A stretch of DNA of 58,784 nt from a virus. A program made the translations under genes and the position numbers. A model generated the notes under the pieces. That model saw nothing but the letters and a program-made list of their open reading frames with translations, was not told the origin of the DNA and made no database searches. The stretch covers positions 1 through 58,784 of the IMG/VR virus record IMGVR_UViG_3300038701_000942. One strand, written 5' to 3'. Numbering within the stretch: the first letter of the stretch is position 1; every line of letters starts with the position of its first letter. Below are positions 2,343-56,164 of this stretch, one piece after another.

Positions 2343-3373
2343 AATATACAGATCTAGACAGACAAGTTGGCATCCCAAAGTTCGACGAGTTCGACATCAT
2401 TGGGGATATGTGGTTGGCCAGAAAGTCCATGGCATCCGAACGACATGCTGAACGAGTACCTGGTACTGTACGCGGTGGCTCTATTGGTGCAATTATTGAC
2501 GGTACAACTCATGGGGTTTGTCATCGTAAGGCATACCTTAGATTCAATGGCATTGAGACTCCACTGGACGGACCAATTGATCTTATGGTGGCGCAGGGAG
2601 AGAAGAATGAAGACATCTTCTTGGAGGAGTTGAGACATAAATATAAAGATACCGAGTTTACAGTGAAAGATCAGACAGAGTTCGAGTGTTTGTGGGAATT
2701 ACCTGGAGACATAAAAGGCAGTGGGTCCCCCGATATCTGTATTTGGGACAAAGACAAGCCAGTAATTGGTATTGAAAACAAGAACATTGGATCTATTTCC
2801 AAAGTAAAGTCCACCCACTATGAGTTGAAGCCCGACCCCACTCACGTCATCCAAGCGGCAAACTATAGCCTGCGGATGGGGGACATGTATTGCGGCGGCG
2901 AACCACTACCATACAGACTTATCTATTCCAACAGAAATATGTACCACTTCTTCGCCATGTCTGAGGCAGTTAAGAAGATTATACTACAGCGTGGTTGGGA
3001 CATCAACTACAGCTTTGGCAGACCAATGACAATTGGTTGCTTTCACCGCGAGTACCTATTGGATTGGGATATCGATGGCCGACTCAGGTATTGGACTGCG
3101 GGGTATAAAGACTGGGTTGTCACTCACATTACCCGAGAGTCTATTGATCTTTACTATACAGTTGTGGCCAAGAAAATGGACACCAACAACACGCTTGGGC
3201 CTAAGCCTGCGATCAAACACATTGATGGATCAAAACATTATTCACAGTGTTCGTATTGTGATTTTAAAAACATCTGTGCAGACGGAGATCGACTTACCCC
3301 ACAAGAGTTCAAGGATCGCGGACAAATATTGGCTGCAGAAATGTGGAAAGAAAGATTGGACAAGGACACGTGA
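2339..3373 (+). CDS. Cas4/RecB-like PD-(D/E)XK nuclease with Cys cluster
   Basis: The 344-residue protein is read from a TTG start at 2339, preceded by GAAGGAG and overlapping the upstream stop by 4 nt. It carries the PD-(D/E)XK core as GSPDICIWD followed by GIENKN (Asp, then Glu-x-Lys). A lone cysteine (GVCHRKAY) near residue 62 and a C-terminal CSYCDFKNIC cluster match the four-cysteine Fe-S arrangement of Cas4/AddB-type exonucleases. Such enzymes process DNA ends in recombination and replication. The last residues may be altered, because an HNH gene starts inside its stop codon. Confidence 0.78.
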   Translation: MKYTDLDRQVGIPKFDEFDIIGDMWLARKSMASERHAERVPGTVRGGSIGAIIDGTTHGVCHRKAYLRFNGIETPLDGPIDLMVAQGEKNEDIFLEELRHKYKDTEFTVKDQTEFECLWELPGDIKGSGSPDICIWDKDKPVIGIENKNIGSISKVKSTHYELKPDPTHVIQAANYSLRMGDMYCGGEPLPYRLIYSNRNMYHFFAMSEAVKKIILQRGWDINYSFGRPMTIGCFHREYLLDWDIDGRLRYWTAGYKDWVVTHITRESIDLYYTVVAKKMDTNNTLGPKPAIKHIDGSKHYSQCSYCDFKNICADGDRLTPQEFKDRGQILAAEMWKERLDKDT

Positions 3374-3897
3374 ATCTGCCAGGATATAAATCAGTCTCTG
3401 AGTTCTCTAGGCAAGTTGGAATTTCCAACAGTGCTGCCTTACGACACGTCCGCCAAGGATATTGCGAGTGGCCCAGGAGGTCTAGGAATAATCAGACCAA
3501 GCACCCACTGTACTACACTTGGATAAATATGAAGCGCAGGGTATACGATGTCACACATCCCGCATATGCAAACTATGGCGGACGGGGAATACAGATATGC
3601 ACTAGATGGTATGTATCCTTTGAGAATTTCTGCAAAGATGTTGGTGAAAAGCCAAGACCTGAATATACTCTAGACAGAATAAATAACGAAGGTAACTATA
3701 CACCTGAAAACTGCCGGTGGGCTACAAGACTGGAACAAAACAATAATCGATCAGTTTGTGGCGGGACAATCTCAGTGGCACCTAATGGAAAGTTCAAAGC
3801 AGAGATAACTGTTTGGGGAAACAGGTACTACTTGGGCACACACTTAACCAAAGATCTTGCCCAAGAGAGTATTGATAAAATAACAAGGGAGAATTGA
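3370..3897 (+). CDS. HNH homing endonuclease (copy 1)
   Basis: The 175-residue product starts at GTG 3370, which overlaps the stop of the nuclease gene (GTGA). The order is an N-terminal module NLPGYKSVSEF ending in WPRR, then YGGRGIQICTRW, then the HNH core DRINNEGNYTPENCRWAT, and a C-terminal DNA-binding tail (GKFKAEITVWGNRYYLGTH) resembling AP2-associated HNH enzymes. It is a clear paralogue of the gene at 15762, sharing the N-terminal module, the NYxPxNCRWAT core and the GTG start. It is probably a free-standing homing endonuclease and contains none of the genome's abundant TTGGCC hexamers. Confidence 0.85.
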   Translation: MNLPGYKSVSEFSRQVGISNSAALRHVRQGYCEWPRRSRNNQTKHPLYYTWINMKRRVYDVTHPAYANYGGRGIQICTRWYVSFENFCKDVGEKPRPEYTLDRINNEGNYTPENCRWATRLEQNNNRSVCGGTISVAPNGKFKAEITVWGNRYYLGTHLTKDLAQESIDKITREN

Positions 3898-3898
3898 T

Positions 3899-4076
3899 AT
3901 TTGGCGGCGGTGCTGGAAGCTAGGGGGTCTCGTGACCCAAACCCAATCAGTGTAAAATACTTTAGGTTGGTACAGTTTAACCCCTTTGAGAAGCACTCGA
4001 AAGATAATAGAGAGTACTGAACAAGTGGAACCCCACAGTAAGTACATTGGCAGGAGTCGCGCCCTGCCCGCCAAAT
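3899..4076 (+). ncRNA. Candidate structured RNA closed by a 9-bp helix
   Basis: This gene-free stretch is closed by a perfect long-range helix, ATTTGGCGG (3899-3907) with CCGCCAAAT (4068-4076). Inside are GGGTC-TCGT-GACCC (3925-3938), GTGG-AACC-CCAC (4025-4036) and GCAGG/CCTGC (4050-4067). The last abuts the closing helix as a T-arm abuts an acceptor stem. No canonical T-loop or anticodon arm was found, so it is not called a tRNA. It starts two bases after the HNH stop, so it could instead be part of the mobile element or remnant sequence. Confidence 0.3.
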
Positions 4077-4126
4077 TACAAACCGACATCTAGTATACAT
4101 CTTTGTATAATAACTGGGAGCATGAA

Positions 4127-7889: not shown

Positions 7890-8074
7890 TGAAGTACACT
7901 GTACGCTGGACACTGGCATTCAGTACCGATATCATCGAGTGTGCCCAGGATGCCGATTCGTTGGAACAAGCTGGCCTTATGTTGTCTGATATCCTGGCGT
8001 CCGCACATACATTAGGTATTCAAGATTATCTTGTGGAATCTGATATCAAGGAATACGACGATGACCTACAGTAA
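7889..8074 (+). CDS. Hypothetical 61-aa protein
   Basis: It starts at the ATG of the TAATG junction at 7889. The product has a beta-alpha pattern (MKYTVRWTLAFSTDIIEC, then SLEQAGLMLSDILA) and an acidic end. It overlaps the second polymerase gene by 14 nt. No family was recognised. Confidence 0.6.
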   Translation: MKYTVRWTLAFSTDIIECAQDADSLEQAGLMLSDILASAHTLGIQDYLVESDIKEYDDDLQ

Positions 8075-9959
8075 TCCCCTTGAGCAATTACAATCTGACT
8101 GGTGGTCTGAATATTCCCAGAATCCAGATAACGACTATTACAAGATTAATGCCCAGCAGTTGGCAAAGACGCCAATACTACTTGATTGTATTGAAGCCCC
8201 TGAGGGATACAAGTTTGTTCAACTGGACTACTGTTTCACGGAAGGAACTGAATTATTAACTAAACGCGGGTGGCTTGAGTTTTCTAAGCTAGACTCAGAA
8301 GACTTGGTGTGGCAAGTAGAGCCTTACTCATTAATAGGTAGCTGGGTAAGACCTAAGCGTGTAATACACAAACATTACAGTGGACCTATTTATACATTCG
8401 GTAACCGACGGGGTAAACTTGAAGTAACATATGGACACAGTATGGTATGGGCAGGACCTCAAACCCACCAAAGGGAAGATAAGAAAAGATTACGAAAGTT
8501 TCAGAGAGCTGAGAACGGAGTACCTAGTACGGCAACCACAATGCTAACAGCAAGCAACTCAAACACCCGGTCATATTATTCCGAACAGGAGATATGGATG
8601 GCCTGCATGTTGGCTGCCGACGGGAGCAGAACCCCAAGCGGTAGCTATACAATAGAAGTCAGCAAGCCACACAAAGTAGCCCAGATTGAAAAACTGTTAG
8701 GACGAGCTGGCACTGTTAGACCAGCCCGACAAAATCAAACCAGAGATTCTCACAGTTGGTATGGTATCAAATTTGAGTCGAAACTATTGTGCCCTGAAAC
8801 CAAAGCACTAAAGTTAAATACTTTAGGATCAAATCAAGTCAATGTATTTGTTGCTGCTCTTAGCTTCTGGGACAGCAGTAAAACGGGATACAAAACCGAA
8901 AGGTTTAACTTTTGCTCAACAAACGAAGTCGAAATTGACAGCATACAAGCATATCTAGTAACTTCTGGGTATGAAGCCAGGAAAACCAGCGGCAACTCTA
9001 AGTCGCTGAAGCACAAAAAGCCATTTTACTTGTCTATTAGAAAGTCTGCCGGAATAAGACTTCGCAGAAACAAAGATGAGCAGATATCAGACTACACTGG
9101 AATGGTTGGCTGTGTTACAGTGGATCATGGATTTATCCAAGTGCGAAGAGATGGACAAACATTTATCTCAGGCAATTGCGCCCTTGAGCCGACAGTGTTG
9201 GCTGAATTCTCGCGTGACAAATGTTATCACGAGATATATGCTTCCGGTAAGCCCCACGAGGTTTACTTGTACGTAGTATGCAAATTACTGGACCCCAATG
9301 GCAAGATCAATGCGGTATATAACCTCGACAATCCCACTGAAGAGTCGGTCGCCAAGACCAAGAAGATGTTCAAGACCGAACGCACAATGGGCAAGATCTT
9401 CCAGCTTATGTCTACATATAAAGCCGGCGCACCAAAGATACATCGACAGTTGGTATTATCAGGCGTAGACATTACCCGAGAAGAAGTAATCGAGATACGC
9501 AAGAAGTACTGGGGGCCGGACCTGTTTGCCGGTATTGTTGACTACGAAGATAATTTGTTGGCCGAAGTTGATCAGCGTGATGGGTGGTTCTTCAATGGCA
9601 TGGGCCGACCATTTGCTGTGACTGACAAGAAACGCAAGGATGTAGTGAACACACATACGCAATCCACTGGGCACGACTTGACCGACCTGATGATTCTTGA
9701 GACCGAGAAGAATGTTGTGGCCAACCAACTGGATTGTATTCCGATCATACCAGATTACCATGATGAAACTATTTGGATGGCCCCAATTGACGATGCCGAA
9801 TCCGCAGCCAATGCAATGTCGGACGCAATTGACGCAGTCAATTCTATGGTAAACTTCAGTATCCCACTCAAGGGAGAACCGGAGATCACAGATAACTTTA
9901 CACAATTTAAGATGCCAGACCCAGTGGGCTGGTATGCGGAGAAATTAAATGACAAGTGA
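8061..9959 (+). CDS. Family-A DNA polymerase, C-terminal gene (palm/fingers) with intein
   Basis: The gene starts at ATG 8061, with AAGGA eight bases upstream. After 57 residues ending FVQLDY it is interrupted by a 315-residue intein. The mature sequence then continues as CALEPTVLAEFS, restoring motif A (LDYCALEP). Motif B is RTMGKIFQLMSTYKAG and motif C is the catalytic YHDE. The segment YYKINAQQLAK near residue 30 continues the template-binding motif left off at 7041, so this gene completes the polymerase begun at 5597. Residues 1-25 look like an added N-terminus for the separate chain. The 3' end overlaps the RNA ligase gene. Confidence 0.9.
   Translation: MTYSNPLEQLQSDWWSEYSQNPDNDYYKINAQQLAKTPILLDCIEAPEGYKFVQLDYCFTEGTELLTKRGWLEFSKLDSEDLVWQVEPYSLIGSWVRPKRVIHKHYSGPIYTFGNRRGKLEVTYGHSMVWAGPQTHQREDKKRLRKFQRAENGVPSTATTMLTASNSNTRSYYSEQEIWMACMLAADGSRTPSGSYTIEVSKPHKVAQIEKLLGRAGTVRPARQNQTRDSHSWYGIKFESKLLCPETKALKLNTLGSNQVNVFVAALSFWDSSKTGYKTERFNFCSTNEVEIDSIQAYLVTSGYEARKTSGNSKSLKHKKPFYLSIRKSAGIRLRRNKDEQISDYTGMVGCVTVDHGFIQVRRDGQTFISGNCALEPTVLAEFSRDKCYHEIYASGKPHEVYLYVVCKLLDPNGKINAVYNLDNPTEESVAKTKKMFKTERTMGKIFQLMSTYKAGAPKIHRQLVLSGVDITREEVIEIRKKYWGPDLFAGIVDYEDNLLAEVDQRDGWFFNGMGRPFAVTDKKRKDVVNTHTQSTGHDLTDLMILETEKNVVANQLDCIPIIPDYHDETIWMAPIDDAESAANAMSDAIDAVNSMVNFSIPLKGEPEITDNFTQFKMPDPVGWYAEKLNDK
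8232..9176 (+). mobile_element. Intein in polymerase motif A
   Basis: This is a 315-residue in-frame insertion. It begins with Cys1 (CFTEGTELLTKRGWLEF), has block B VTYGHSMVW, ends in FISGN, and is followed by Cys+1 of the extein. A LAGLIDADG-type homing endonuclease domain is suggested by IWMACMLAADGS and the later VAALSFWDSS. Splicing would join LDY to CALEP directly at the catalytic Asp motif. The base composition is plainer than the flanks, and no TTGGCC/GGCCAA occurs in it. Confidence 0.92.
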
Positions 9960-11061
9960 ATCAACATTTATGGTACCCTTGACCAAAATAAAAGCAGTTC
10001 GCACGCACCCAAATGCACACAGTTTAGATATAGCAACTGTGTTCGGATTTGATGTAGTGTGTGGAAAGGACGTTTACAAAACAGGAGACTTGGTAATATA
10101 CATACCTATTGACTCCATATTGCCGCCCCACCTTGAGTCGGCGTTATTCCCTTGGGATTCCAAGATAAAGTTGTCCAAGTCCAGGGTGAAGCAGATTCGC
10201 ATCCGTAAATTCCCATCCCAGGGAATGCTGGTACATCCACGAGTAATCGAGGAAACTTACGGATTTCGGCCAACCAAAATGACAGACTACAGCAAGAAAC
10301 TGGGAATTGTAAAGCATGAGCCACCGGCCCCCAAGACACAAATGCAAGGCCAATCAAAAAAGAAATCCAAGGACAATCCCAAGTTCTCGAAATACAATGG
10401 CCTCAATAATTTCAAGTGGATGCCCGATAAGTTCCAGATAGGTGAACAGGTTACTATACAAGAAAAGATACACGGAACGAATGCTAGGGCTGGATTGTTA
10501 CCCTACCACGCAAACACATGGTGGAAAAAGATCAAGAAATTGTTTGGGTTGACCCCAAAATATGAATTCTGCTATGGATCAAACAATGTCCAATTAAGTG
10601 GAAAATCAAACAAAAGTGGATATTATGGAGAGGATGTATACGGTCGTGTATTTTCCTCATTGAATATTGAAGCCAAGCTGCTACCAGGAGAACAGATCTT
10701 CGGGGAGATATATGGAGATGGTATTCAAAAAGGATATGCTTATGGATGCAAACAAGGCGAGCTGAAGTTTGTGTTGTTCGATGTTAAAATGAATGGCAAG
10801 TGGCTAGACCCAGATGAAGTTCGTAAGCGTGCAGAAGCACACGGACTGCGTATGATTCCGGAATTATTCCGTGGACCATTTAATCCAGAAGCGGCCAAAG
10901 AACTAACTCTAGGGGATTCAGTATTGGCCCCAAGTCAGAAAGTCCGCGAGGGGGTTGTAATTAAGTCCATCCTGGGGTACAATGAAGGCTGTGGATCAAA
11001 GCGGGCACTCAAGATGATTTCAGAAAAGTATCTTGACAAAGATCAAACCGACTTCCATTAG
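9949..11061 (+). CDS. RNA ligase, DRB0094/Rnl5-like
   Basis: The 370-residue protein overlaps the polymerase gene by 11 nt. An N-terminal OB-like domain (SLDIATVFGFDVVCG, YKTGDLVIYIPIDSILP) precedes the nucleotidyltransferase. The nucleophile is Lys173 in motif I EKIHGTNAR, followed by FGEIYGDG, motif IV REGVVIKS and motif V LKMISEKY. This order matches the Deinococcus DRB0094 (Rnl5) RNA ligases, which seal nicked RNA using ATP. In a phage it may repair host tRNA cleavage or RNA made in defence. Confidence 0.88.
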   Translation: MTSESTFMVPLTKIKAVRTHPNAHSLDIATVFGFDVVCGKDVYKTGDLVIYIPIDSILPPHLESALFPWDSKIKLSKSRVKQIRIRKFPSQGMLVHPRVIEETYGFRPTKMTDYSKKLGIVKHEPPAPKTQMQGQSKKKSKDNPKFSKYNGLNNFKWMPDKFQIGEQVTIQEKIHGTNARAGLLPYHANTWWKKIKKLFGLTPKYEFCYGSNNVQLSGKSNKSGYYGEDVYGRVFSSLNIEAKLLPGEQIFGEIYGDGIQKGYAYGCKQGELKFVLFDVKMNGKWLDPDEVRKRAEAHGLRMIPELFRGPFNPEAAKELTLGDSVLAPSQKVREGVVIKSILGYNEGCGSKRALKMISEKYLDKDQTDFH

Positions 11062-12016: not shown

Positions 12017-12236
12017 TAACATACGTAAAGCACTGATCTTGGCAATACAAGAACTGCACAGAATTCAGCTACCAGATTATGTAGTTAGAAATGATGGGGG
12101 CTTATCAATGTATTCAGAATTAAATAAACGCATGAGATGGGCTAAGGATGCTGAGAGAAAAATTCTAGATATGACAGGAATGGATTATTATAATCTAACG
12201 ATTGATCCTCAAGACCTTGTGAGAAATCACAAATGA
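12006..12236 (+). CDS. Hypothetical 76-aa protein
   Basis: It overlaps both neighbours (11 nt upstream, 4 nt downstream), consistent with translational coupling to the helicase. It is helical and basic at the start (NIRKALILAIQELHRIQ) with a MTGMDYYNLTIDP end. No family was recognised. Confidence 0.6.
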   Translation: MINDNIRKALILAIQELHRIQLPDYVVRNDGGLSMYSELNKRMRWAKDAERKILDMTGMDYYNLTIDPQDLVRNHK

Positions 12237-14533
12237 CCAGCACAACTTCTATACTGGATTACTTTCCATATGATAAACCGCGCCCTAGTCAGCTCAAGGT
12301 ATTGCTGTGGGTCGAGAAGAATTGGGATCGGTTCGACCTGATGGTCCTTCAGTGTCCCGTGGCAGCCGGTAAATCTGGTCTTGCGGTGACTATTGCCAAC
12401 TGGGCCAACCAAGAACATGGTGTCCTTACGGGCATCACAACGCCGGACAATGTACTGGTTAATCAATACAAGCAAGATTTCAATCTATTGACGTTGCCGT
12501 ACCGCAATTCATTTGCCAGCGGTGATCTGTATGTTCAGGCCAAGAACGAGTTCAAAGCGGCCCCCCTAAAGGTGATGAATAATTTCACACTACTGGCCAA
12601 TCGTGCCTACAGCGATCTGCAAATTATGGATGAGTGCTTCCCAGGAGATGTGGAAGTTCTTACTAATTTTGGATTTAAAAGATTCGATGAGCTAGGAACA
12701 CATGAGAAGGTTGCTCAGGTTGACTCCAACAGCTTAGAACTAGATTTTGTTATGCCTAGTCGTTATGTAAAAAAGCAGGTTGTAGATCATGATATGGTTC
12801 GTTTTTCGTCTACTAAGAATATCAACCTAACGTGTACGGCAAAGCATGCCATGCTTGTGACTAACAGGCTCAACGGGATCACTAGTAAGTACTACGCCGA
12901 TGCAGTACCTCTAAGTACTAGCCAAGTGTATCGAGCAGGAATCAGCACACAGTTTGGTCCTGAGACTATGTCCTCTTGGCAGAAGCTTATGATTGCCACG
13001 CAAGCAGATGGATGTATTACAGGGAAATCAAACATCCAATTCTCTTTTTCCAAGCAACGCAAGATAGATAAGTTCAAAGAATTAATGGCTGAAGGCAAGT
13101 TTGAATATAGTGAAGTAAAAGGAAAACCAGTAAACGGAGCATGCCAAGCCAAACGTAGGTTTATTGTTCGCAGAATGCAAGGTGCCAGTAAGGTATTGTG
13201 GGATCATTTTGAGATACAGGATATATCAGCTAACTTAGGTAGAGAAATTTTAGAGTATATGGTAGAGTGGGACGGCTGCAGAATCAATAAGAATCAGTTG
13301 TACTTTTCTTCTGTCATAAAGACCAATGCAGACTTTTACCAAACAGTGGCCTGCTTGTCTGGATACTCCTCAAACATGACAGTACAAGTAGATCCTAGAA
13401 AGGATACATTTTCCGATGTACACAGACTTTTCATTTCCAAGGATCGTAGTTCGGTGGGCCTGTCTACTTCCAAAAGAACTTCTCATAAATACAGTGGAAA
13501 TGTATTTTGTGTAACTGTACCCAAAGGCAATATTATAGTTAGACAAAAAGGTAAACCCATAGTAGTTGGAAACTGCCATCAACTTATTCCTATGTTGCAG
13601 GATTTCGAAGGTATAAAGATATGGCAACACCTCGAAGGCTATCCTAAGACTATTAAGACTGTGGCAGATCTGCTGGTTTGGGCCGGCTCGCGTGGCCCAA
13701 AGGACAAGCTGGGCAAAAAGATAACCAAACTGGTGTCAAGAAACCCCAGTGATTATGTGGTAGTCCAAGACTCGGAACTTTATCGCGGACGCATACGTGA
13801 CTACTTGCGTATATATCCACTGACACCCAAGAATAATAAGCCCATATTGTGGCCACCCAGCAAGGTAAAGAAGTTGATACTTATGTCGGCTACCATTGCC
13901 AAGCCGGATATCGAAGATTTGGGGCTACATAACCGGCGTGTGGGGTACATCGAAGTTCCTTCGGATATACCGCCGGCTAATCGACCATTTATATTTGTTG
14001 GCCAAGGCAGCATGGGCCGTGGTAACGCACGGGAAACATTACCAAAGATCATGACTAAGTTGCGAGATATTCACAACGGCAACGGGGGCCGTGGGATGTT
14101 GCATACCACTTACAGTTTGTCTTCGAGTATGCAAGCCAAAGGTGAAACACCTGCCTTGATATTCCACGGCATAACAGATAAGCGTGATAAATTAAATGCT
14201 TGGATGTACGACCAGTCGGATAAACGAACTTTTGTTGGCTGCGGCTTGACAACTGGGCTAAACTTGAAGTATACTGTGTGTAATTGGCAAGCCATTATGA
14301 AGTGTCAATTTCCCGATTTGGCTGATCCAGCGGTTGCAGCCAAGGCAGAACGCAGCCCCGAGTGGTATGCTTGGACGACCATCAAGCAAATAGTACAGGC
14401 ATATGGCCGCGTCTGCCGAGCACCAGACGACCTGGGGGCAACATACATGCTAGACAGTGATTTTATAAGATTGTATACAGAATATAAACACCTGTGGCCA
14501 ACCTGGTTTACAGAAGCCCTGGAGATACGATGA
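12233..14533 (+). CDS. DinG/XPD-like superfamily 2 helicase with intein
   Basis: The start is ATG 12233 at an ATGA junction. Motif I is CPVAAGKSG (residues 41-49). Motif II reads MDE-CHQL after removal of a 313-residue intein, giving a DECH box. Motif III-like LILMSATI and motif VI QAYGRVCRAPDDLGATYMLD follow, the last being typical of Rad3/XPD/DinG helicases. No iron-sulfur cysteine cluster is obvious, so it is a minimal version. It probably unwinds DNA 5'-3' during replication. It is followed directly by an exonuclease gene. Confidence 0.87.
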   Translation: MTSTTSILDYFPYDKPRPSQLKVLLWVEKNWDRFDLMVLQCPVAAGKSGLAVTIANWANQEHGVLTGITTPDNVLVNQYKQDFNLLTLPYRNSFASGDLYVQAKNEFKAAPLKVMNNFTLLANRAYSDLQIMDECFPGDVEVLTNFGFKRFDELGTHEKVAQVDSNSLELDFVMPSRYVKKQVVDHDMVRFSSTKNINLTCTAKHAMLVTNRLNGITSKYYADAVPLSTSQVYRAGISTQFGPETMSSWQKLMIATQADGCITGKSNIQFSFSKQRKIDKFKELMAEGKFEYSEVKGKPVNGACQAKRRFIVRRMQGASKVLWDHFEIQDISANLGREILEYMVEWDGCRINKNQLYFSSVIKTNADFYQTVACLSGYSSNMTVQVDPRKDTFSDVHRLFISKDRSSVGLSTSKRTSHKYSGNVFCVTVPKGNIIVRQKGKPIVVGNCHQLIPMLQDFEGIKIWQHLEGYPKTIKTVADLLVWAGSRGPKDKLGKKITKLVSRNPSDYVVVQDSELYRGRIRDYLRIYPLTPKNNKPILWPPSKVKKLILMSATIAKPDIEDLGLHNRRVGYIEVPSDIPPANRPFIFVGQGSMGRGNARETLPKIMTKLRDIHNGNGGRGMLHTTYSLSSSMQAKGETPALIFHGITDKRDKLNAWMYDQSDKRTFVGCGLTTGLNLKYTVCNWQAIMKCQFPDLADPAVAAKAERSPEWYAWTTIKQIVQAYGRVCRAPDDLGATYMLDSDFIRLYTEYKHLWPTWFTEALEIR
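12635..13573 (+). mobile_element. Intein in the helicase DECH box
   Basis: This 313-residue insertion begins CFPGDVEVLTNFGFKRF, has block B NLTCTAKHAMLV, and ends CVTVPKGNIIV then PIVVGN before the extein Cys. Two degenerate LAGLIDADG motifs (LMIATQADGCI and ILEYMVEWDGC) mark a homing endonuclease domain. Splicing joins MDE to CHQL, so the insertion splits the ATPase box that the host protein needs. It contains no TTGGCC/GGCCAA hexamer. Confidence 0.93.
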
Positions 14534-15321
14534 AGAAGCCAAAAACATTGATATTCGACCTTGAGTCGAGCCCTAAGACTGCATACGTCTGGGGACTGTG
14601 GAACCAGAATATTGGTATCAACCAAATTAAAGATGACATGTACATCCTAGACTGGTCTGCCAAATGGTTAGACGACGAATATGTCTACAGTGACTCGTTG
14701 CATTACCACAAGCTGTGGGACAAAGAGCCACAGAATGACCGCATCATTGTCGAGTCTGCGTGGGAAATGTTTGACCAAGCTGACATCATTGTCGGCCACA
14801 ACGTCAAACGATTTGATATTGCCACCATGAATTCTCGGTTTGTCCAATTAGGCATGCGCCCCCCTAGTACGTTCCAAGTAGTAGATACACTAGCCATTGC
14901 CAAGCGCAGAATGAAGTTCACTAGTAACAAGCTGGACTTTATTGCACAAGCACTGGGGGTTGGCCAGAAAGTACAGACTGGTGGATTCCAGTTGTGGGCC
15001 GACATCATCGAGAACCATGACCGCAAGGCATTCGATCTTATGGTAGAATACTGCGAGAATGACGTATTCATCACTGAAGAAGTATACAAGATTCTCAGGC
15101 CGTGGGATGACAAGCACCCGTCAGTTGTTATTGCCGGAGATCTCAGCAGGCCACGCTGTAACGCCTGTGGCTCGAATAAAATACACAAGCGCGGGTTTCA
15201 CTATACGCCTACGCAGACATATCAGAAGTACAACTGCGTCACATGTGGACACAACATGAGATCCCGTATAGCCGAGAAACGTACGATAGAACAAAAACGT
15301 AACTTATTGCGGAGCAATTAA
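14530..15321 (+). CDS. DEDD 3'-5' exonuclease with C-terminal zinc ribbon
   Basis: The 263-residue product starts at ATG 14530, overlapping the helicase stop. Exo I is IFDLESSP, Exo II is VGHNVKRFD, Exo III is YCENDV (DEDDy spacing), as in PolB-like proofreading exonucleases. The last 60 residues hold a zinc ribbon (CNACGSNKIHKRG, then YNCVTCGHN). Because the polymerase already has its own exonuclease domain, this second enzyme probably acts in recombination, repair or host DNA breakdown. Confidence 0.83.
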   Translation: MKKPKTLIFDLESSPKTAYVWGLWNQNIGINQIKDDMYILDWSAKWLDDEYVYSDSLHYHKLWDKEPQNDRIIVESAWEMFDQADIIVGHNVKRFDIATMNSRFVQLGMRPPSTFQVVDTLAIAKRRMKFTSNKLDFIAQALGVGQKVQTGGFQLWADIIENHDRKAFDLMVEYCENDVFITEEVYKILRPWDDKHPSVVIAGDLSRPRCNACGSNKIHKRGFHYTPTQTYQKYNCVTCGHNMRSRIAEKRTIEQKRNLLRSN

Positions 15322-15322
15322 T

Positions 15323-15544
15323 ATGCCAAACAGATACATTTGTTCAGTACTCAGCGAGATGCGAGAATGTCGGAAGACCAATAACTTCAGCTATCTGGGC
15401 GGGTTGATCGAGGAAGCACAGGTTATGGCGAACCGCATGGAAGCCAGGATACACACCGTCCACGACCTTGAACGTCTGGAGAAACGCACAAAAGAAATGC
15501 GCACCGAGTTAAAAAAGAATGACAAATCAGAGTACGGAGACTAG
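15323..15544 (+). CDS. Hypothetical 73-aa helical protein
   Basis: It starts at ATG 15323 after GGAG. The sequence (SVLSEMRECRKTNNFSYLGGLIEEAQVMANRME) is a helical hairpin of a type I associate with small phage proteins of unknown role. It lies in the replication operon, coupled to its neighbours by a few bases. Confidence 0.7.
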   Translation: MPNRYICSVLSEMRECRKTNNFSYLGGLIEEAQVMANRMEARIHTVHDLERLEKRTKEMRTELKKNDKSEYGD

Positions 15545-15546
15545 GG

Positions 15547-15789
15547 ATGCCCATTTACGAATTCCGCTGCGAGAACTGTAGCAAGACCCAGGAACATATT
15601 GTGAAGCTGTCAGAAGCGGACACCTTCGAACCCAGCAAAGACTGCTGTGATAAGCCAGAACCGAAGCGGTTCATTGGCAAAGTCAACATCAAAAAGGGTG
15701 CCAGCTGGGGACCAGGTAAGGGGAATTGGCTTATTCCATTGATATTATTAGGAGAATCGGCGTGGAGTTACCTGGCTACAGCAGTATAG
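15547..15789 (+). CDS. FmdB-like zinc-ribbon protein, C-terminus altered by HNH insertion
   Basis: MPIYEFRCENCSKTQE at the start and a second Cys pair (DCCDKPE) are typical of FmdB-family zinc ribbons. After GASWGPGKGNW the protein runs on for about 21 hydrophobic residues that overlap the start of the inserted HNH gene. Removing the insertion between the two copies of GGGGAATTGG makes the original end GKGNW followed by TAATG, the start of RNase H. The present tail is therefore read-through of the mobile element. Confidence 0.8.
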   Translation: MPIYEFRCENCSKTQEHIVKLSEADTFEPSKDCCDKPEPKRFIGKVNIKKGASWGPGKGNWLIPLILLGESAWSYLATAV

Positions 15790-16309
15790 TAGAGTTCTGC
15801 AAAGAACAAAGCATACCCTACATGACCACAGTTAATGCGTTAAAGCGAGGATACAGCAAGTGGCCACGTCGGACTATATCTGGTCAAAGCAAGAACCCAG
15901 CCTACAAATGTTGGGAGAATATGGTTCAACGAGCAACAAACCACAAAGTCTCTGGAGCACACAATTACTGCGGAAGAGGAATCAAGGTTTGCGATAGGTG
16001 GCGCGTATCCTTTGAGTGGTTCCTAGAGGACATGGGATCACGCCCAAGCAGGCGACACAGTATCGACAGGATCGACGTTGACGGCAACTACGAACCTGGT
16101 AACTGCAGATGGGCAACACCTTCAGAGCAAGGCATAAACAAGAGATATATCCGGGGCCGGCCCGGATCAATAGGAAGGTGTGCATCCGGAAAATGGAGAG
16201 CCCAAATATCTAGAGACAACAAAACATACCATCTTGGTACACATGTTACAGAAAATCAGGCAGAGCAAGCTATTGAGGACTTTTTAACAGAAGAACGTGG
16301 GGGAATTGG
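15720..16309 (+). mobile_element. HNH insertion flanked by 10-bp direct repeats
   Basis: GGGGAATTGG occurs at 15720-15729 and again at 16300-16309. Collapsing the two copies removes 580 bp carrying the HNH gene and its ribosome-binding site (AGGAG at 15750). It also restores a FmdB gene ending in TAATG that overlaps the RNase H start, matching the spacing style of the rest of the operon. Confidence 0.75.
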
Positions 16310-16319
16310 TAATGCTTAA
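15762..16319 (+). CDS. HNH homing endonuclease (copy 2)
   Basis: The 185-residue product starts at GTG 15762, seven bases after AGGAG. The N-terminal module ELPGYSSIVEF to KWPRR, YCGRGIKVCDRW, the HNH core DRIDVDGNYEPGNCRWAT and the C-terminal KTYHLGTHV tail parallel the copy at 3370 closely. It is a free-standing homing endonuclease. Its last codons lie in the right-hand direct repeat and overlap the RNase H start. Confidence 0.87.
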   Translation: MELPGYSSIVEFCKEQSIPYMTTVNALKRGYSKWPRRTISGQSKNPAYKCWENMVQRATNHKVSGAHNYCGRGIKVCDRWRVSFEWFLEDMGSRPSRRHSIDRIDVDGNYEPGNCRWATPSEQGINKRYIRGRPGSIGRCASGKWRAQISRDNKTYHLGTHVTENQAEQAIEDFLTEERGGIGNA

Positions 16320-16800
16320 GCTATATACCGATGGATCTGGACAAGCATCCGGCCCCTGCGGTTGGGCGTTTGTTGTCGTAGATAAATCCGAGACAATTGA
16401 ATACGCAGTGGAATCTGGCGGCCAGTTGAATGGCACATCGAACATCGGCGAAATGTTAGCCATAATCAACGGACTGGAGTGGGTCCAGGCCAACAGACCA
16501 CCCGAGACAGTGCACATCTTCACCGACTCTGCGTATTGCATGAATGCATTTGTACAGTCATGGACAACCATGTGGTTGAAACGCAATTGGAAGAATGCAC
16601 GTGGCCGAAAGGTAGCAAACAAAGAACTGTGGCTACAGCTTATGGGACTGGTTGACAACTTAGATGTAATGTGGCATCATGTCCCCAGTCACACAGGCAT
16701 TAAGTACAACGAATTGTGTGATACACTAGCAGGCAAGGAGAGAAAGAAATGGCTGGATATATCTGCTATGACTACAGATGCGCAAGCTGCGCAACAATAA
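16312..16800 (+). CDS. rnhA: Ribonuclease H
   Basis: The start is ATG 16312 (MLKLYTDGSG); the earlier in-frame ATG at 16297 lies in the inserted element. The four acidic residues of RNase HI are in place: Asp in YTDGSG, Glu in NIGEMLAI, Asp in IFTDSAYC and Asp in NELCDTLAG, with His in VPSHTG. The enzyme degrades RNA in RNA-DNA hybrids and would remove primers. Its end overlaps the next gene by 52 nt. Confidence 0.9.
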   Translation: MLKLYTDGSGQASGPCGWAFVVVDKSETIEYAVESGGQLNGTSNIGEMLAIINGLEWVQANRPPETVHIFTDSAYCMNAFVQSWTTMWLKRNWKNARGRKVANKELWLQLMGLVDNLDVMWHHVPSHTGIKYNELCDTLAGKERKKWLDISAMTTDAQAAQQ

Positions 16801-17099
16801 CAACATCCATGATGAAGCGGGATGCCGTCGTAGAGATGGTTGAGTGCGAGAAATGTGGCGAAACTGCTGGTCGTATATTGACGGCAAACATTTGCCGCGT
16901 CAGTTACCCCGACGGAACTACAGATCGGTTCAAAATGGCCAAGGAGAAACGAGCACTGGACAAGCTCAAGCGGGCAGCCAAGAAGTCGCAGAACAGTGAC
17001 GAAGTTGCTCGGATTAATACCGAATTAGGTAATGTCCGAGAAGTATCAAAACGAGACAGACAAGCAGCAAATATTTGCAAAGTATCGGAGAAAGAATAA
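16749..17099 (+). CDS. Second zinc-ribbon (FmdB-like) protein
   Basis: It starts at ATG 16749 behind GGAG. Two CxxC pairs (RCASC and CEKC) form an N-terminal zinc ribbon (YDYRCASCATITTS, VECEKCGETAGRIL). A long basic helix follows (MAKEKRALDKLKRAAKKSQ). It is a structural cousin of the protein at 15547 with an added C-terminal helix. The role is unknown; nucleic-acid binding is plausible. Confidence 0.72.
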   Translation: MAGYICYDYRCASCATITTSMMKRDAVVEMVECEKCGETAGRILTANICRVSYPDGTTDRFKMAKEKRALDKLKRAAKKSQNSDEVARINTELGNVREVSKRDRQAANICKVSEKE

Positions 17100-52075: not shown

Positions 52076-52780
52076 ATGGCATTATTGACAGCCCAAGCCA
52101 GCAGCTCGAAGTTGGCCAAGAATTCCGGCATTGACGATACCTATATGTCTTTTATTATGTATCTAGCGCCGGCAGATATTGTCGATGGCATTAACGTGTG
52201 CCCTGCTTCGACCGCAGGGTGCCGTAAGGCATGTTTATTCACGGCTGGCCGGGGTAAGTTCTCAAACGTGCAGGCTGCACGTGTGCGCCGAACCACCCAA
52301 TGGCGTGATGATCCCGATGGCTTTATTGAGCAACTAGTTGTCGAAGTTGACAAGGCCATACGTAGGGCAAGACGCGCCGGCAAGAAACCCGCGTTTCGAT
52401 TCAATGGTACATCCGATGTTGACTGGGAGACCGAAATCCGAGACAGGCACCCCTACTTTTATGAAGAGCGCGAAGACGCTGTATTTTACGAATATACGAA
52501 ACGACCTGAGTTGGCATTGCGTAAGTCACCGATTAAATTCACCTTTTCACGGTCAGATACGAACCATAATCTACTAGGTCGTATGCTAGGCAAAGTAAAT
52601 GTTGCAATGGTATTCAGTAAGTTACCGGACATATACATGGGAGTCCGAGTAATCAAGGGTGATAAGCACGATCTTCGTTGGACCGATCCTAAGGGCGTAA
52701 TCGTAGGACTACTTCCAAAGGGAGAGGCTAAAAAAGATAGCAGTGGGTTTGTTATTCATATTCCTTCAAGTATTGAATAG
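52076..52780 (+). CDS. GP88-like phage protein
   Basis: The 234-residue product has YLAPADIVDGINVCPASTAGCRKACLFTAGRG, followed by VQAARVRRTTQWRDD, a signature I associate with the phage gene-product-88 family. The biochemical role of this family is not established; the spaced cysteines suggest metal binding. It overlaps convergently with an endonuclease VII cassette by 29 bp. Confidence 0.72.
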   Translation: MALLTAQASSSKLAKNSGIDDTYMSFIMYLAPADIVDGINVCPASTAGCRKACLFTAGRGKFSNVQAARVRRTTQWRDDPDGFIEQLVVEVDKAIRRARRAGKKPAFRFNGTSDVDWETEIRDRHPYFYEEREDAVFYEYTKRPELALRKSPIKFTFSRSDTNHNLLGRMLGKVNVAMVFSKLPDIYMGVRVIKGDKHDLRWTDPKGVIVGLLPKGEAKKDSSGFVIHIPSSIE

Positions 52781-53270
52781 CTTTCTCCAATAAAATAGTA
52801 TTATCTTTGAAGTGGCCTAGTGCCACATTACAATTATCGCAGAGGAGCTTGCGGACCGTACCAGTTGCATGGCAATGATCTACTGCAAGAATGCGAGGTA
52901 GTTCTGATTCATGGCGACTGCACAAATAGCAACTATGTCCCTGCTCTTTTAACATTGCAGCATACATTTCTGGAGTGATGCCAAAGGCTTTGGTTCGTCT
53001 AGATTCTCTAATGTAGTTTTTGCATGTGGAGCTTAGCTTATTCACGCGGCTTTGGCTGAAGTAAAATCTATCTAGAGATAGTGTTTTATTACACTTATTG
53101 CAGGACTGTGTTCCGTTGGTTTGTAACTTATAGCTTTCCTTGCGCTTCCTCAGTTAGTCTTTGTGGCAAGCTATGCAACTAGCACGTAAGCCCGTAGCGG
53201 TATCATTCCTCTTATGATAAAATCTCAGTGCCTTTTCTTCTTTACATTTGGTACAAATTTTTGTTTTCAT
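52752..53270 (-). pseudogene. Endonuclease VII-type homing nuclease, interrupted by a stop
   Basis: Read from ATG 53270, the frame gives a zinc ribbon (KICTKCKEEKALRFYHKR, then SCIACHKD) and a TAA at codon 39 (53156-53154). It then continues in the same frame with a second ribbon (SCNKCNKTLSLDRFY). The T4 endonuclease VII core follows: CYLCSRHESELPRILAVDHCHATG then VRKLLCDNCNVALGHFKDN. A GTG at 53045 could start a shorter core protein. Oriented against the operon, with its own promoter, it looks like an inserted homing cassette now decaying. It contains no TTGGCC hexamer. Confidence 0.8.
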
Positions 53271-53532: not shown

Positions 53533-53937
53533 ATGAAGTACAGGCTTGGCTCTAGGGAATCAAATGGTTTACATAGGATAATCGCTTTAAAAGATTTTTC
53601 CCATATAAAAACCGGCCAACTAGGTGGCTATGTTGCATCCAAAGCTAACCTTAGTCAATTTGGCGATGCTTGGGTGTATGACAATGCTTGGGTGTCTGGC
53701 GATGCTAGGGTGTATGGCAATATAGTACTAACTGCCCCAATGCTTATGTTCCACCTGGAACGACACGCTATATGTGTATATGACAATTTGGTTGCCGTAG
53801 GGTGTGAATTACATACGATAGATTACTGGCTGAATAATTACGAACAAATTGGCAAAAAGAATAATTACTCAATCGAGGATATAGAAGTGTACGGAGACTT
53901 GTTGCGGTTTATCAATAAACACTGGGATATTAAATAA
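53533..53937 (+). CDS. Beta-helix (hexapeptide-type) repeat protein, short copy
   Basis: This 134-residue protein has LGGYVASKANLSQFGDAWVY followed by DNAWVSGDARVYGN, a left-handed beta-helix repeat. A globular C-terminus follows (AICVYDNLVAVGCELHTIDYWL). It is a paralogue of the gene at 55700, with nearly identical DNA across the GGYVASKANLSQFGDAWVY segment but fewer helix turns. The function is unknown. Confidence 0.7.
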   Translation: MKYRLGSRESNGLHRIIALKDFSHIKTGQLGGYVASKANLSQFGDAWVYDNAWVSGDARVYGNIVLTAPMLMFHLERHAICVYDNLVAVGCELHTIDYWLNNYEQIGKKNNYSIEDIEVYGDLLRFINKHWDIK

Positions 53938-55520: not shown

Positions 55521-55710
55521 TATTAAAACCGGCAAGGAACGGGTTGAATCGCGGTCACTGCTGGTAGATCATGCGTCTGGACAGATCACAGCCAACCCGC
55601 CGTTAACACCTGAAGAAGAACGCATGCTACGCATTCGTGGCAGCCTAGAGCGTGTAAATGCCTTGATGGCAGAACTCAGGAAATTAAAGGAGCATTCTGA
55701 TGAAATATGA
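55504..55710 (+). CDS. Hypothetical 68-aa protein
   Basis: The second of two ATGs is chosen because it lies six bases after GGAG. The C-terminal half is a helical hairpin (PLTPEEERMLRIRGSLERVN, ALMAELRKLKEH). It overlaps both neighbours. No family was recognised. Confidence 0.6.
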   Translation: MTKIVDIKTGKERVESRSLLVDHASGQITANPPLTPEEERMLRIRGSLERVNALMAELRKLKEHSDEI

Positions 55711-56164
55711 ATTGACTAATGACACTAAGTTGGTTGGTTCGGTGACATTACACCGTATTCGCAGGTTGTCTGATGGCGAATTGGGTGGCTATGTTGCATC
55801 CAAAGCTAACCTTAGTCAATTTGGCGATGCTTGGGTGTATGGCAATGCCAAGGTGTCTGGCAATGCTTGGGTGTATGGCAATGCCAAGGTGTCTGGCAAT
55901 GCTTGGGTGTATGGCAATGCCAAGGTGTCTGGCGATGCAGTCGCCAAGGAATTCCACCCTCTAGTATGTCAACTAACTCGGAATACCATCACTGTTACTG
56001 ATAAGCACATTCAAATTGGTTGCGAACTACATCTGTTTGATCATTGGCTAAGGAACATAGAACAAATTGGCCAAGATAATCTATACTCAAAAGCAGATAT
56101 TAAACTATACACAGCGGTGGTAACTGCTATAATTAACTCTAGGAGAAACAAAGATGTCAAATAA
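55700..56164 (+). CDS. Beta-helix repeat protein, long copy
   Basis: This 154-residue paralogue of the gene at 53533 has three exact copies of a 12-residue unit (GNAWVYGNAKVS) built from 36-bp DNA repeats. This gives an extended left-handed beta-helix, flanked by the shared GGYVASKANLSQFGD segment and a C-terminal domain (IQIGCELHLFDHWL). Low DNA divergence between units suggests recent or ongoing change in repeat number. Confidence 0.72.
   Translation: MKYELTNDTKLVGSVTLHRIRRLSDGELGGYVASKANLSQFGDAWVYGNAKVSGNAWVYGNAKVSGNAWVYGNAKVSGDAVAKEFHPLVCQLTRNTITVTDKHIQIGCELHLFDHWLRNIEQIGQDNLYSKADIKLYTAVVTAIINSRRNKDVK
55823..55930 (+). repeat. Three tandem 36-bp repeats in the beta-helix gene
   Basis: Units run 55823-55858, 55859-55894 and 55895-55930; they differ only at one base in the first unit (GGCGATGC instead of GGCAATGC). 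Each encodes two six-residue beta-helix rungs. Unit number can vary without a frameshift. Confidence 0.9.

Follow-up and report, generated by a model that had tools for sequence, protein, structure and literature searches.

An HNH endonuclease gene flanked by zinc-ribbon and RNase H genes in a virus genome: a very likely insertion bracketed by a 10-bp direct repeat

How could an endonuclease gene have come to lie in a junction between two genes so tight that the same few bases would end one and start the other, and still leave both readable? The question is raised by a 58,784-base virus record (the window, that is, the whole stretch of DNA analysed here), in which an HNH gene stands between an FmdB-family zinc-ribbon gene and an RNase HI gene. 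A sequence-only reading of this DNA had proposed that the HNH gene was inserted there; we consider this very likely, since the zinc-ribbon protein carries a tail for which no relatives were found in the loci and contigs searched, and since the HNH family is mobile. All six genes from 14494 to 17099 are on the + strand. The features of the locus, together with a second HNH gene upstream of it, are as follows.

3370-3897, + strand: second HNH gene, same family; its GTG start overlaps the stop of the preceding gene; no border repeat
14494-15321, + strand: exonuclease-like gene
15323-15544, + strand: small gene
15547-15789, + strand: FmdB-family zinc-ribbon gene in its present reading, 80 aa (a 61-aa family-like core and 19 extra residues)
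15720-15729, + strand: left copy of GGGGAATTGG, coding G-N-W, the final residues of the zinc-ribbon core
15730-16299, + strand: stretch between the repeats, the putative insert of 570 bp, delimited from sequence; HNH homology stops near its right edge
15730-15786, + strand: the 19 extra zinc-ribbon codons (LIPLILLGESAWSYLATAV), read from the insert
15750-15754, + strand: AGGAG, assigned from sequence as the HNH gene's ribosome-binding site (upstream 20 nt, duplex energy -7.3 kcal/mol)
15762-16319, + strand: HNH endonuclease gene, 185 aa, GTG start at 15762 (PHROG matches, tblastn, structure model)
16300-16309, + strand: right copy of GGGGAATTGG, the predicted RNase H Shine-Dalgarno sequence and some late in-frame codons of the HNH ORF
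16310-16314, + strand: TAATG, where an uninterrupted zinc-ribbon gene would have its stop, in overlap with the start of RNase H
16312-16800, + strand: RNase HI gene (PF00075, E 7.9e-27; phrog_531, E 2.5e-45)
16749-17099, + strand: second zinc-ribbon-like gene

The two copies of GGGGAATTGG are exact and are the only ones in the window, and they bracket the 570 bp with the HNH gene just as the sequence-only reading had said; the insert also brings its own ribosome-binding site, as that reading had noticed. The bases flanking the two copies differ on each side, so the repeat is exactly 10 bp long. The HNH ORF shares 28 nt with the zinc-ribbon ORF and 8 nt with the RNase H gene, and its stop (16317-16319) falls within the first RNase H codons. 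When the flanks are joined at one copy of the repeat, the sequence reads ASWGPGKGNW and a stop, in the TAATG of the RNase H start.

How much weight can the repeat bear? GGGGAATTGG is expected 0.10 times in the window, and two or more copies were seen in 1 of 100 shuffles. Loose borders (random 80x80 windows) gave a 10-bp repeat in 210 of 20000 trials, about 1 in 100, and a 30-bp window test in 17 of 20000; with tight borders (56 + 25 nt) a common 10-mer was found in 189 of 200000 random pairs (about 1 in 1000), in 394 of 200000 letter shuffles, and in 3 of 420 real gene-border pairs, the HNH pair being one of the three. These border figures flatter the repeat, since the borders were picked once the repeat was known. 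Another exact 10-bp direct repeat is present in the same 1.5 kb, and 2 of the 67 gene-like ORFs of the window have an exact 10-bp border repeat, the HNH gene and the ordinary gene at 9949-11061. The repeat of the latter, GGAGAAATTA, is Shine-Dalgarno-like, and its presence at an ordinary gene is a warning against taking such repeats for footprints. Taken alone, the GGGGAATTGG repeat is modest evidence; its position carries the weight.

These counts bear on the reading that there was no recent insertion, the three-gene order being old, the zinc-ribbon tail native and the repeat a chance word favoured by G-rich, Shine-Dalgarno-like borders. The two ORFs out of 67 speak for it, as do the failure to find an empty site in the collections searched and a base composition that is not foreign (G+C is 47.1% in the insert and 46.9% in the window, so composition was dropped as evidence of insertion). 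It has to contend, however, with a family of HNH genes that moves between sites, and with a tail that overlaps the HNH start region out of frame and is without relatives in the fetched loci listed or in viral_contigs. We regard it as quite improbable.

At this position the bases of the repeat have a predicted role in each neighbour. The right copy places a run of Gs 8 nt ahead of the RNase H ATG, and the predicted pairing with 16S rRNA is -8.4 kcal/mol now and -8.3 kcal/mol in the joined form; if the insert ran straight into TAATG, the second copy being absent, it would be -2.4 kcal/mol (the mean is -5.9 for 16 other genes and -2.7 kcal/mol for random positions). In the joined form the same bases finish the zinc-ribbon gene and serve RNase H. 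Since the GGGGAATTGG bases both end the zinc ribbon and give RNase H its predicted Shine-Dalgarno sequence, the two neighbours would need them twice to work once they are parted, and the duplication would thus let both survive.

The zinc-ribbon protein scores 36.3 bits against TIGR02605 (FmdB) over residues 1-50, above the curated cut-off of 31.3; it matches Zn_ribbon_8 with an E of 7e-8, slightly under that model's cut-off, and its phrog_13665 alignment spans residues 1-62. The gene has no continuation behind the insert, where RNase H comes next. The tail of 19 residues after W61, LIPLILLGESAWSYLATAV (LIPLILL...), is encoded across the HNH start region in a different frame, and no relative of it was found by tblastn against the fetched loci, among the matches listed, or by scanning tail patterns through viral_contigs. 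Zinc-ribbon lengths are 55-69 aa in 26 of 43 distinct proteins (from 58 further loci, among the matches listed), and many relatives, again among the matches listed, end a few residues from a GW.GK-like motif. From this length range and the lack of such a tail elsewhere, 61 residues look normal and the 19 extra ones foreign to the family as sampled. The earlier estimate of about 21 foreign residues thus holds in kind, the tail having no relatives found, but the count is 19; the case that had been named as contrary to it, a long zinc-ribbon C-terminus without the HNH gene, was not found among the fetched loci listed or in viral_contigs. The phage relatives are distant (at most 41.5% over full length). 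Six of them were read whole, and five end [KR]GNW[LF]xxTG[GR]Y and one RWLP; the closest jumbo-phage zinc ribbons have seven residues beyond GNW in 5 of 6, so an ancestral stop right after W is possible rather than established.

An empty site was sought from several sides. The RNase H query had one relative in viral_contigs, at 31%, and none in genome_contigs. The neighbouring exonuclease query kept 80 of 93 loci (best, 43%), plus 2 loci in genome_contigs, with no empty site in either set. Degenerate DNA for GKGNW-TAATG matched 9 stretches, all of them short frames unlike a zinc ribbon, and degenerate DNA for WGPGKGNW matched none. A zinc-ribbon alignment query reached at least 41 loci and a single-protein query 17, with no empty junction among the matches listed; relatives of the zinc ribbon and of RNase H stood together in no fetched locus, among the matches listed and at the thresholds used. 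No close relative of the phage itself was found in viral_contigs or genome_contigs for a comparison of presence and absence at the same site. So the GKGNW-TAATG junction that the sequence-only reading had rebuilt by collapsing the repeats is what the joined sequence reads, but the uninterrupted junction that it had expected in related phages was found in no collection searched.

What kind of gene is the HNH gene? Its protein matches phrog_374 (E 1.9e-42) and phrog_3377 (E 1.1e-36), tblastn gave matches in 973 phage records, and blastn of the region against INPHARED matched part of the HNH gene only, in 6 records. The protein and its paralogue (3370-3897) have 41% identity across 177 aligned positions; both genes have a GTG start at the same position (M-x-LPGY) and each lies directly behind a gene, and the longest word common to both borders of the paralogue is 6 nt. 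Homology between the two stops at about residue 177 of 185, which indicates that the last residues derive from the right flank. R57, W80, R103, Y110, and N114 are invariant across 69 distinct homologues aligned together. Residue 70 of the window protein is Cys, the sole case, against Gly in 68 of 69 homologues; the protein also lacks Cys58, a Cys present there in 64 of 68 homologues. Given Cys70 and the lost Cys58, the enzyme may be altered.

The structure model of the HNH protein (mean pLDDT 78, pTM 0.56) has two N-terminal helices, which we take for a helix-turn-helix on the strength of the model, followed by a strand-strand-helix core; residues 136-161 have a pLDDT below 50. An AP2 domain in the C-terminus reaches a Pfam E of 0.038 and 14.7 bits, below the cut-off of 33.3. 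A fold search of BFVD gave 77 matches with E up to 0.001, the best being a phage HNH protein and many of the top ones named phage HNH and AP2 proteins. The same search of the PDB gave nothing significant (best, PacI, E 1.4), and PDB chains searched by sequence yielded a single weak match; as no PDB fold matches significantly, the HNH assignment is based on sequence families and on viral models. An Rfam search of the window at gathering score had no match. By sequence homology, the HNH gene is of the free-standing homing-endonuclease kind, with no intron or intein as carrier; nuclease activity and homing are predicted for its protein.

Several other features of the window were recorded. The non-coding stretch behind the second HNH gene (3898-4125) has a somewhat better fold than its shuffles (z -1.86; 9 of 200 did as well); TTTGGCGG and CCGCCAAA pair in it, and it has no tRNA or Rfam match. 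Intein-like insertions are seen in the helicase ORF at 12233-14533, which has weak intein N-terminal and Hint matches, and in the DNA polymerase A ORF at 8031-9959, a long N-terminal half of which is unmatched. A gene of the Endonuclease VII family lies on the minus strand at 52752-53045 (PF02945, E 1.7e-25), and two similar proteins (53533-53937 and 55700-56164) have GGYVASKANLSQFGDAWVY in common, followed by short repeated units.

Homologues of the HNH gene are mobile, their site being filled in some close relatives and empty in others, which allows their footprints to be compared with the one seen here. Three occupied/empty pairs were used (VR7 vs VR25, SF1-1 vs anhysbys, and muut vs arall); Klebsiella RCIP0114 and Staphylococcus S2G3, for which no clean empty partner was found, were left out. 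Junctions were read directly from the sequence, as the automatic VR7 alignment put the gap wrongly. In VR7 and MN01 (gene order rIIB, HNH, denB.1), compared with VR25, SP18, and UPEC01, a spacer with a G+C-rich hairpin-like sequence is lost; the rIIB end is TERFND in VR7 versus TEQF, its last 18 codons are recoded relative to VR25, and the denB.1 start is intact. SF1-1 has lost the spacer relative to anhysbys and ABPW7, with the last 16 codons recoded and the leader of the next gene intact. The muut locus differs from arall and phi92 in a recoded stretch of 12 codons at the end of the upstream gene and also in the replacement of the small gene that follows. Outside the recoded tracts, identity per 50 bp is 94-100% to VR25, anhysbys, and arall, and 80-100% to phi92. 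The end of the upstream protein changes in length by 0 to 2 residues, and no target duplication was seen in the three pairs.

This pattern, in which the 3′ end is recoded and the start or leader downstream stays intact, agrees with co-conversion accompanying homing and not with a staggered-cut insertion; such co-conversion is known from T4, according to the available part of PMC2988022. The HNH gene of the window could likewise have arrived by co-conversion from a related phage, with its own version of the upstream 3′ end and in place of whatever had separated the zinc-ribbon gene from RNase H, in which case the 10-bp match would be chance or the trace of a template switch and the joined form would not be ancestral. 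The three pairs support this account, with 18, 16, and 12 upstream codons recoded behind nearly identical preceding sequence, and with the spacer (VR7, SF1-1) or next small gene (muut) replaced while the downstream start or leader is kept and no target is duplicated; that distant zinc ribbons extend past GNW also suits it. It does less well with the size of the change, 19 residues here against 0 to 2 in the pairs, and with a match that tight borders would yield by chance about once in 1000 and that is in frame, which puts the stop over the start of RNase H. We hold it to be a serious possibility, though the lesser one.

The sequence-only reading had suggested staggered cutting as the source of the repeat, and this finds no support in the family: besides the footprints just described, a 10-bp border repeat was found at none of 47 homologous loci (49 less 2 excluded for nearness to a contig end), where the longest border word was 9 bp and the null rate for 10 bp or more 3.2%, with borders that are approximate as ORF starts were set by rule. 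A transposition-like insertion, in which a 10-nt staggered cut by the HNH protein itself gave a true target-site duplication, would account for a perfect 10-bp repeat precisely at the apparent edges, and a short direct repeat at the ends is what a target-site-duplicating element has; a like duplication is absent from the other family insertions, however (the 47 loci and the three resolved pairs), no inverted ends were found at the insert borders, and HNH homing enzymes nick or leave short staggers. Hardly any probability can be given to it.

How does the locus compare with known systems? The IPA-HNH (HNH plus AP2) phage endonucleases, as far as described in the available part of PMC10448857, resemble it in a phage HNH core with a hint of a C-terminal AP2, in strong PHROG HNH matches, and in the presence of two copies in the genome, among DNA-metabolism genes. 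The window protein differs in having a two-helix segment at its N-terminus instead of its relatives' common Cys-rich segment, in an AP2 part that is weak and of low confidence in the model, and in a locus with a 10-bp border repeat. The HNN-AP2 type is a further comparison for the HNH plus AP2 architecture (PMC2248197, in part). The HNH insertion in the Pacc40 gp60 methylase (PMC11855218, from the portion available) has a homologous HNH core, with 75% DNA identity over ~120 bp, and both HNH ORFs are out of frame with the gene entered; gp60, however, reads through the whole insert, whereas the window zinc ribbon stops after 19 residues, the insert being at the gene end. The mob and seg genes of T4 (available part of PMC2988022) are also free-standing, intergenic genes with a start overlapping the upstream gene, by 11 to 24 bp compared with 28 nt here; homing has been shown for some of them and is predicted for the window gene, and that part of the source describes no 10-bp duplication for them. 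The cuts made by known free-standing homing endonucleases lie hundreds or thousands of bp away from the enzyme's own gene (same source, in part), which makes a 20-bp cleavage target at the rebuilt junction, proposed earlier, doubtful. In titles and abstract openings, our literature search met no description of short target duplications at free-standing phage HNH genes. On the whole this is a phage mobile gene of an ordinary kind, with a putative insertion scar that is unusually neat.

Taking the joined junction as the ancestor is plausible and is the best single reading; the Shine-Dalgarno argument strengthens it, and the lack of an empty site and the different usual footprint of the family weaken it. 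We therefore favour, as somewhat the better bet, the account that a free-standing HNH gene entered a tight junction and that 10 bp were kept on both sides, leaving both neighbours readable. In the ancestor, the last zinc-ribbon codons, GGG AAT TGG, would have doubled as the RNase H Shine-Dalgarno sequence, and the zinc-ribbon stop would have overlapped the RNase H start (TAATG), with GGTAAGGGGAATTGGTAATGCTT as the predicted junction. The insertion would have left 10 bp on each side of the insert, presumably duplicated in a single event, so that the zinc-ribbon core would still end in the left copy, with RNase H still driven by the right one. The break would most likely have been joined by illegitimate or microhomology-assisted repair; a 10-nt stagger at this step is possible but unsupported. 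Insertions here without both copies would have harmed a neighbour, which can explain the footprint at this site and not elsewhere in the HNH family. The general proposition, that a short target copied on both sides installs HNH genes and is their way into overlapping junctions where a gene end is also the next ribosome-binding site, seems to us unlikely.

Phages commonly carry free-standing homing endonuclease genes, and to our knowledge the first entry of these genes into new sites without harm to compact neighbours is thinly documented. The present locus suggests one route of entry, the doubling of a few bases that are at once a coding end and the ribosome-binding site of the next gene; the three occupied/empty pairs suggest another, in which the incoming gene brings a recoded end of 12-18 codons for the gene upstream.
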